This document shows positions 49,694 to 53,167 of a stretch of DNA of 64,000 nucleotides, piece after piece (the stretch's first letter is position 1; the number at the start of each line of letters is the position of its first letter). The notes beneath the pieces were generated by a model. The model ran no database searches, was not told the DNA's origin, and worked only from the letters and a program-made list of their open reading frames with translations. The stretch lies in the NCBI GenBank assembly GCA_015709495.1, contig CP054189.1:2418001-2482000 (forward strand), written 5' to 3'. The DNA comes from Chthonomonadaceae bacterium. Lineage in GTDB: Bacteria > Armatimonadota > Fimbriimonadia > Fimbriimonadales > Fimbriimonadaceae. Both the position numbers and the translations under genes were made by a program.

Positions 49694-50647
49694 ATTCTAA
49701 TTGCTCCTTTTGCTTTCGAGTGACACAAGTCACGCAGCAGAAATACGAAACTATACTACTTTACAGGAACTTCCATTCCAACGGGAATTTTGGGGAGGGA
49801 AACCAGTATTTTTGTCAGTGGAAAGAGAGTGCGAGCGCCTGCACCGTGACATCCAGCCGCAAGAGGCTCGAAGGTCAGTCCCCGGCCCTGCGACTCCTGT
49901 CGAGCCCATCCGCCACCTTAGAATCGGCTACTTGCCCTTCGCTGCAGATTGAGCTTCCACGAACGGCTTGATGTAGGCCTGCGCCTTCTCCCGACTGAGG
50001 ATATCGGGGGCGGCGAACTCGGGCAGTCCCTTCTTGGTGCGAAGAACCGCCATTTTTCGGCGGGACTCGCTCGCGTACCTATGGGCCTTCGCGAGCACCC
50101 GGGCACACTCCTGAGGCGCATGGAAGCCCATTCCGTTGTTGGCGGCCACGTAGTCCCAATACATCTGCCCCAGGCTCACCAGCTTCCTCACCTCTTCAAG
50201 TTCTCCGTCCGCGATTCCGCTGCGCCAGCCGTCGCCGATCTCCAGGTGAGCCAGCGTGATCTCGCTCTCCGCCGCTTCGAGGAGTTCCTTGTTCTTGTCC
50301 TGGATCGAGATCACGCGGGTCTTGATCTCGTTCTCGGACCATTTGTGGCACACCTGGCACGAGTTCTGGAGGTTTTCGAGCGGGCTCCGAATCTGGTGAT
50401 CGGTGTACTTGATGCCGCCTTCTGAGACATAGGGCATGTGGCAATCCGCGCAGCTCACTCCTCGGAACGCATGGATGCCCTGCATATACACCTCGTAGTC
50501 GGGGTGCTGCATCTTGATCATTTTCGCGCCCGAGATCGCATGAGTCCAATCGACGTGGCCGGTTCGTTCGTAGTACTCTTCCATGCCCTCGATGGTTATT
50601 CCGTCGTCCCAAGGGAAGGTCAAATACTTCTCCTTCTCGCCTTTGAA

Positions 50648-50679
50648 GTAATACTGGCTCCTCGCTGTTTGGTGTGGGT
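50648..50679. repeat. Left target duplication and IS inverted repeat
   Basis: GTAATACT (50648-50655) is the target duplication. The left inverted repeat begins GGCTCCTCGCTG and runs 24 bp (50656-50679), identical to the right end. Confidence 0.95.
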
Positions 50680-51899
50680 TGGCGTAATCTGATGGGATGC
50701 AACCGACCGAGTTATTTGCTCTTGGCCTTGGGCTAACGCCCCCTTGGAAGATCGTGGACATCGAGTTCATTGACGGTGAGGTTCACATCAAGGTGGACTT
50801 TGAACGCGGGGCCAGGTTTGGCGGGCTTGAGGTTCACGACACTTCCGAGCGGAAGTGGCGGCACCTAAACTTCTTCAAGTATCCGTGCTTCATTCATGCC
50901 AGGGTGCCTCGGGTCATCGGCAAGGACGGGAAGGTGGCCACGGTTCAGGTTCCCTGGGCCCATGCGGGCAGCGGCTTCACGATGGACTTTGAAGCGCATG
51001 CGATCGAGCTCGTTTCCCAGATGCCTGTGGCGCCGGCGGCCAGGCTCCTGAGACTGTCTGACACCCGGCTCTGGCGGCTCATCCATCAATACGTGAAGCG
51101 AACCCGAGACGCCCTGGGCATCGGCCAGCCGACAAGGATCGGGGTGGACGAGACGGCGGCAAGGCGCGGCCACGACTACATCACGGTCTTCGTGGACTTG
51201 GATGCCCGGCGCGTTCTGTATGCCTGCCAGGGGAGAAGCGGTTCTGCCCTTTTCGAGTTCAAAGCGTTCCTCAAGGCCAAAGGCGCGGACCCCGCCAAGG
51301 TGCAGGCCTTCACCTGCGACATGGGACCGGCGTTCCTTGGCGGCATCGCGCAGGCCTTCCCCCAAGCAAGCGTGACGCTCGACCGCTACCACCTTGTGGC
51401 CCTTCTGACAAGGGCGGTCGATGAAACGAGAAAAGCCGAAACCAAGAAGGCGACGAAGTTCAAACGAACCCGCTGGCTCTGGCTCAAGAACCCAACCAAC
51501 CTCTCAGAGAAAGAGAAGCTGAGCCTCCAAGAGCTTCTGGAAGAGAACGCCTTTCCCCTCACCGGAAAAGCCTACGGTCTCAGACTGGCTTTCCAGGAAC
51601 TCTTCAAAGTCCCCAGATGCCAGGCGCAGACCGCATTCTACGAGTGGATCGGCATGGCCCTCGCCTCAGATATCCACGCCGTCGTCGAGGTCGCCGTCAC
51701 CTTCTTCAATGCGGCGGACAAGATCTTGAGGTGGTTCGAAACCCGAATCTCCAACGGATTCCTGGAAGGCCTCCACAGCGTTCTGCAGGCAGCCAAAAAC
51801 AAAGCGCGAGGCTACAGCAACCCTCAAAACCTCATCGCCATGAGCTACCTGCTGCACGGAAAGCTACGACCCGCTACCCACACCAAACAGCGAGGAGCC
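50656..51899 (+). mobile_element. ISL3-family insertion sequence, 1244 bp
   Basis: The element is bounded by 24-bp perfect inverted repeats starting GGCTCCTCGCTG and flanked by 8-bp direct repeats GTAATACT, the duplication length typical of ISL3. It carries one transposase gene and sits inside nrfA in the opposite orientation. Identical ends and an unmutated duplication indicate a recent insertion. Confidence 0.95.
50685..50690 (+). promoter_or_regulatory. Candidate -10 box of the transposase gene
   Basis: TAATCT ends 6 nt before the transposase ATG, inside the left IS end. There is no Shine-Dalgarno sequence between it and the start codon. Confidence 0.4.
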
Positions 51900-52019
51900 G
51901 TAATACTCCACGTGGCACTGGGCGCATACGAGCGAGCGCATTTCCTGGTGGCTGACCTTTGTGATGTCTTTCCCCTGACGCTCAAAAGCCTCCTTCAAGG
52001 CCGGGCGGCTGATCCTTAG
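50697..52019 (+). CDS. ISL3-family transposase, reading past the IS end
   Basis: A 440-codon frame with the ISL3 DDE transposase signatures: IGVDETAARRGHDYITVFVDL (first Asp), FTCDMGPAFLGGIAQAFPQA (second Asp), YHLVALL, and NGFLEGLHSVLQAAKNKARGYSN (Glu). The IS supplies exactly 401 codons with no stop; the frame then enters the nrfA antisense strand and adds 39 residues before a stop at 52019. The catalytic core is intact, so it could be active. The tail is foreign and depends on this insertion site. Confidence 0.93.
   Translation: MQPTELFALGLGLTPPWKIVDIEFIDGEVHIKVDFERGARFGGLEVHDTSERKWRHLNFFKYPCFIHARVPRVIGKDGKVATVQVPWAHAGSGFTMDFEAHAIELVSQMPVAPAARLLRLSDTRLWRLIHQYVKRTRDALGIGQPTRIGVDETAARRGHDYITVFVDLDARRVLYACQGRSGSALFEFKAFLKAKGADPAKVQAFTCDMGPAFLGGIAQAFPQASVTLDRYHLVALLTRAVDETRKAETKKATKFKRTRWLWLKNPTNLSEKEKLSLQELLEENAFPLTGKAYGLRLAFQELFKVPRCQAQTAFYEWIGMALASDIHAVVEVAVTFFNAADKILRWFETRISNGFLEGLHSVLQAAKNKARGYSNPQNLIAMSYLLHGKLRPATHTKQRGAVILHVALGAYERAHFLVADLCDVFPLTLKSLLQGRAADP
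51876..51907. repeat. Right IS inverted repeat and target duplication
   Basis: The right inverted repeat (51876-51899) ends GCGAGGAGCC, followed by the second GTAATACT copy (51900-51907). Confidence 0.95.
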
Positions 52020-52597
52020 CTGCATGGTCTTGTTGTCGTGGCAATCGGCGCACCCGATCGGGTTCTTGACTTCATCCTTGAAGTCGTGGAAGTTCAAGGC
52101 GTAAAACTCTCCGATCCCCACCTTGTCCATCAGCCGCGGCACGTCCGGGCTCTTGCAGGTCCAACAAGTGGCGGGCGTCTTTTCGTTCACGCGCTTGGTC
52201 ATCGTGACGTCCTCGACCGCGTAGTAGTGGCCTCGCGCTTGGTTGTACTCCTTGGCAAACGCGTAGCCAGCCCACATAATCACAAGCCGAGGGGTCGATT
52301 CGAGATAGTCCCGAAAGCCCGAACCTCCGTACTTCGTCTTGGAGTTCATTTGCTTGGTGGCCTCCCACGACTGGTACTCGCGCGGAAAGCTCGCGCCCCA
52401 CACCGAGTTGTCGGCCTCCCAGTCAGGGATGTCCTTCATAAACTGGAGCCGTGCGGGAATCGACTCCATGCGGCGTTCGCCGATCGAGGCTGCGAGAAGC
52501 CCGAGCGCGACCACGCCCAGCGCGGAGCCTCCAAATACAAGCCAGCCCCAAGCGGATGATCGCCGGGTGGGAGCGTCGTGTGAGGTCGGTTTGTCGT

Positions 52598-53167
52598 TCA
52601 TTTGTTGTCTCTCAAGAAGGAGGGCGAAACGGGCGGCAACGGAGGGACTGCTGCGTTCGGAGTCGAGTTCAGGCTGCTGATTCGGCCGTGCGGCACCTCG
52701 CGGTGGCACTCGATGCAGGGCCGAGTGGAGCCGCTATGCACGTCGGCCGCGATGGTTTGGATCGTCGTCGTGTGGCATCGAATGCAGTTCTCTTGAATCA
52801 CTGTCTTCGAGGCCTCGCGCGCCCGGATGACTTGGGGTTCGAGCCGAAACGTGAACATGAAGGAATGGCGCCCCCCATCCATCGCTTTGAACCAGTACTT
52901 CCGGACCACGTTGTCATGGGGCACATGGCAGTCATTGCAGGTGGCAACCCGGCCGTGGCTGGAGTGCTGCCAAGTCGCGTATTGGGGCGTCATGATGTGG
53001 CAGTTGATGCACGCCTTGGGGTCGTCAGAAAGGTAGCTCAGTCCGTTGGAGGTGTAGCCGACCCAGCCGGCCGCCGCCGTGAAAGCTCCCAAGCTCGCCA
53101 TCCCGGCTAAGCGCAGCTTGGGCGGCATGAAACCAAGGCCCAAGATCGAGCGCAAACGCATCATCAC
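52598..53167 (-). CDS. nrfH: NrfH, tetrahaem quinol dehydrogenase
   Basis: A 189-residue membrane-anchored cytochrome c of the NapC/NrfH family. It has one N-terminal span (AGMASLGAFTAAAGWVGYTS) and four C-x-x-C-H haem motifs: CINCH, CNDCH, CIRCH and CIECH. NrfH oxidises menaquinol and passes electrons to NrfA. Its TGA overlaps the nrfA ATG, confirming the pair. The protein is intact although its partner is disrupted, so it may be without function at present or serve another reductase. The C-terminal Pro-rich tail is longer than usual. Confidence 0.95.
   Translation of the reverse strand: MMMRLRSILGLGFMPPKLRLAGMASLGAFTAAAGWVGYTSNGLSYLSDDPKACINCHIMTPQYATWQHSSHGRVATCNDCHVPHDNVVRKYWFKAMDGGRHSFMFTFRLEPQVIRAREASKTVIQENCIRCHTTTIQTIAADVHSGSTRPCIECHREVPHGRISSLNSTPNAAVPPLPPVSPSFLRDNK

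Follow-up and report, generated by a model that had tools for sequence, protein, structure and literature searches.

The closest described counterpart of the locus analysed here is the NrfHA cytochrome c nitrite reductase of Wolinella succinogenes (NrfA structures 1fs7 and 1fs9), with which it has in common a CX2CK motif and four CXXCH motifs, the EYY and KxQH segments, and nrfH placed directly upstream of nrfA. The mobile element found inside it has the hallmarks of the ISL3 family of insertion sequences, namely the DDE_Tnp_ISL3, helix-turn-helix and zinc-ribbon domains, inverted ends starting with GG, and an 8-bp target duplication. In the window, i.e., the whole 64,000-nucleotide stretch of DNA that was analysed, nrfA is interrupted by this element, whereas the gene is intact in a genome labelled as the same species (G062, a single contig of 2,809,316 bp, about 2.6% divergent in the nrfA region) and in other members of the bacterial family. 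It is very probable that an active ISL3 element inserted into an intact nrfA and thereby abolished NrfA in this lineage, while another lineage of the species keeps the gene. The locus is organised as follows.

52598 to 53167, minus strand: intact nrfH, encoding the tetrahaem quinol dehydrogenase of the Nrf complex, with four CXXCH motifs (TIGR03153, 167.7 bits against a cut-off of 134.2) and no amino acid difference from G062.
51900 to 52601, minus strand: 5′ part of nrfA, codons 1-234, with the membrane anchor and haems 1-3, ending in ...CAQCHVEYY (PF02335, 1.7e-70).
49928 to 50655, minus strand: 3′ part of nrfA, carrying haems 4-5 and the KMQH segment of the active site; codons 235-473 and the stop occupy 49928-50647 (PF02335, 4.2e-82).
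50656 to 51899, plus strand: ISL3-family insertion sequence of 1244 bp, with inverted repeats.
50656 to 50679, plus strand: left terminal inverted repeat, 24 nt.
51876 to 51899, minus strand: right terminal inverted repeat, reading CAG where fossil copies carry the transposase stop.
50697 to 52019, plus strand: transposase ORF, with 401 codons in the element before it continues through the right end into nrfA.
50648 to 50655, no strand assigned: left copy of the target duplication, GTAATACT.
51900 to 51907, no strand assigned: right copy of the target duplication, GTAATACT.

Joining the flanks in silico yields a NrfA of 473 codons with CWTCK at residue 146 and CXXCH at residues 184, 226, 300 and 331, in agreement with the original prediction that the element lies at codon 234/235 and that its removal restores the five-haem frame. 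That nrfH-nrfA is otherwise intact was also claimed, and it holds for nrfH, which passes its TIGR03153 cut-off, and for nrfA, which is free of old decay. In the alignment to Wolinella succinogenes NrfA (1fs7), both CAQCHVEYYF and KMQHPDYE find their counterparts, and the insertion falls directly 3′ of CAQCHVEYY. Structure 3bng, which we take to be the Y218F active-site mutant of NrfA, has a phenylalanine at the first EYY tyrosine, aligned to Tyr233, one codon ahead of the insertion; residue 233 would thus be the active-site tyrosine. As the cut directly follows the Glu-Tyr motif of the active site, that site ends up split between two fragments. Past the junction the 5′ ORF gains 11 residues from the element before it stops, and the 3′ ORF lacks both a start codon of its own and an export signal. 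Both products should be inactive, since the former lacks haems 4-5 and half of the active site and the latter would not be exported. No haem-lyase gene was found among the ten neighbouring ORFs scanned.

The element itself is well preserved. Its inverted-repeat arms (24 of 24 bp, 100% complementary) enclose a single transposase gene, whose product matches PF01610 (E=8e-59), PF13542 and PF14690 and scores 277.8 bits with NF033550 against a cut-off of 180. The ISL3 assignment, the 24-bp identical repeats and the unmutated 8-bp duplication that had been read from the sequence are therefore all borne out. The transposase ORF has no stop codon within the element. Fossil copies, i.e., a partial one at 2806706 of the same genome and a remnant at 1620331 of G062, have a right end that reads GGTTCCTCGTCATTTGGTGTGGGT in the left-end sense, with one additional change in the G062 remnant, and that carries the transposase stop TGA. 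Relative to these fossils, four bases of the amplified copies (1233-1235 and 1242) are changed, which makes the right end identical to the left one and removes the stop; as a consequence the ORF runs on into the flanks, and its length is set by the neighbouring DNA (440 aa at nrfA, 410 at 220659 and 408 at 337726). Elements of another genus (G010) likewise lack the stop, and others (G021 and G056) have one at that position. Identical ends are thus most simply read as a derived state and not merely as a sign of youth. It is possible, if doubtful, that a recent conversion of the right end to a copy of the left end, by erasing the stop and making the transposase tail site-dependent, raised mobility and drove the small burst that hit nrfA; the link from the end change to higher mobility is a guess.

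Three full copies of the element, at nrfA, 220659 and 337726, are identical over 1244 bp in this genome, and, because they occupy different sites, they imply recent transposition. A fourth (2263307-2264547) measures 1241 bp, with three 1-base deletions that represent either fresh decay or residual assembly error, and zero substitutions; it lies within an ankyrin-repeat gene, in the part that codes for the signal peptide. The 8-bp duplications match at nrfA, 220659 and 2263307, while the flanks are unmatched at 337726 (ACAATTTT/ACAATGCG), which suggests that this last copy has probably been rearranged by deletion or by recombination between copies. At the same copy (337726-338969) a transposase-like start is connected with an ORF for a VirD4-like ATPase, and the flanks of this copy are mostly missing from G062. 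The target is GTAATACT in two of the three copies with matching duplications, those at nrfA and 2263307, and AAAACACT in the third. Within the window, GTAATACT is confined to the two copies flanking the nrfA insertion (shuffle expectation 0.16). The element thus seems to prefer certain target sequences, and nrfA has such a preferred site where its EYY motif is encoded. Selection for loss of the gene need not be assumed.

In G062, nrfA is uninterrupted (473 codons, 98% amino acid identity, CX2CK plus four CXXCH), and the DNA crosses the site with a single GTAATACT, 117 of 118 bases matching the joined flanks. The species is therefore polymorphic for the insertion, and the uninterrupted allele that the original prediction had proposed to look for in relatives is present, in the form of the predicted empty site. 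Since G062 holds the element only as broken remnants, its site is most simply one that was never occupied.

Comparison of the two alleles also bears on the age of the event. Between the two strains nrfA differs by 36 synonymous and 9 nonsynonymous changes (dN/dS 0.063), and at 125 positions that do not vary among 14 other orthologues of the family the interrupted gene shows zero private changes; of three departures at invariant positions, those at 379 and 394 are common to both strains and that at 441 is G062's own. Old decay of nrfA is ruled out by this low ratio together with the lack of private change at invariant sites. The suggested recent loss of the pathway is thus supported by the empty site, by purifying selection on nrfA and by the identical element copies. 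Only the divergence from G062 and the fact that the copies are identical set bounds on the time of insertion.

The comparison with G062 adds one more feature to the locus.

49750 to 50620, no strand assigned: stretch over the 3′ half of nrfA and the flank downstream of it, in which divergence from G062 is elevated (recombination mosaic).

Identity to G062 is 99.4% in the 5′ half of nrfA and 94.3% in the 3′ half, and dS rises from 0.02 to 0.26, with the change no more than about 170 bp away from the element. A recombination event thus lies near the insertion, which is counted against the preferred explanation. The interrupted allele might have been imported from another strain by homologous recombination after the insertion had happened elsewhere. 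Such an import appears unlikely. The nearest differences lie 30-130 bp to the left of the insertion (50618, 50597 and 50522), and none is found between the insertion and 52096; moreover, comparable swings in divergence recur across the 17-kb comparison with G062, which makes ordinary recombination the likely cause of the jump and its nearness to the element perhaps a matter of chance.

A reversible switch, in which the element would move into the GTAATACT site and excise from it precisely, giving a mixture of Nrf+ and Nrf- cells, would account for an intact target duplication, as precise excision needs, for the repeated use of one preferred 8-mer, and for the existence of an element-free allele within the species. 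However, that allele belongs to a genome about 2.6% divergent in this region and not to a sister cell, and the broken remnants in G062 favour a site that never received the element; what is observed is a polymorphism between strains and not a switch within a population, and we regard the switch as very improbable. It could nevertheless be that not all of the sampled population carries the insertion. A search of the literature for nrfA genes interrupted by an IS, or for ISL3 elements that insert reversibly, found nothing decisive. An assembly in which identical copies of a multi-copy element were misjoined, so that nrfA only seems interrupted, is hardly credible: the three 1-base deletions of the 2263307 copy do resemble those of an unpolished long-read assembly, but a misjoin would leave unmatched duplications, whereas both nrfA flanks carry the same 8 bp and remain collinear with G062 for 7-9 kb. 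An assembly chimera is rejected on these two grounds.

Altogether, these findings favour a model in which an active ISL3-family element transposed into a preferred target (GTAATACT, plus strand) within an intact nrfA, duplicating 8 bp and splitting the protein just past the catalytic Glu-Tyr motif. NrfA function would thereby have been abolished in the lineage, and the strain would no longer reduce nitrite to ammonium. The gene is single-copy in this genome, and the NirK, NirS and NirB/SIR families (TIGR02376, PF02239 and PF01077) gave no match there; across the NrfA, NirK, NirS and NirB/SIR families, no nitrite reductase other than this nrfA was thus found. Both strains retain an NXR-like protein that scores 1706 bits, end to end, against the A chain of nitrite oxidoreductase 7b04, with a matching beta subunit. 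Should this enzyme act as a nitrate reductase, reduction in the interrupted strain would go no further than nitrite, which would be released in place of ammonium. The NXR-type cluster (1694294-1701431) comprises alpha and beta subunits and, as judged by eye, a NarJ-like protein and a probable haem subunit; it adjoins an operon resembling alternative complex III, and its alpha subunit is found in only 6 of 85 family genomes. Speth et al. 2016 (PMC4821891) reported a related gene cluster in a MAG of the Armatimonadetes from an anammox plant. The distribution of nrfA is patchy in the family too (19 of 85 genomes).

The locus offers a clean case of an environmental species in which one strain loses respiratory nitrite ammonification and another keeps it, so that the species' role in nitrogen cycling would be misjudged from one genome per species. 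Since the two halves are both still there, surveys based on marker genes or reads would go on counting nrfA in this strain.

The knock-out is real, but it is fairly ordinary in kind. Like other cases of IS-mediated gene inactivation that are polymorphic within a bacterial species, it consists of an occupied and an empty site in two conspecific genomes, and nothing essential differs; what sets it apart from known IS knock-outs is a host lineage known mostly from Armatimonadota MAGs, its relatives being MAGs of the Fimbriimonadaceae/Armatimonadota. Among plasmid records, the transposase is nearest to ISAtc1/ISTfe1 of Acidithiobacillus (about 45% amino acid identity). Compared with the ISL3 family at large, the element differs in that its transposase stop was lost with the homogenisation of the right end, so that the transposase ends in flanking DNA.
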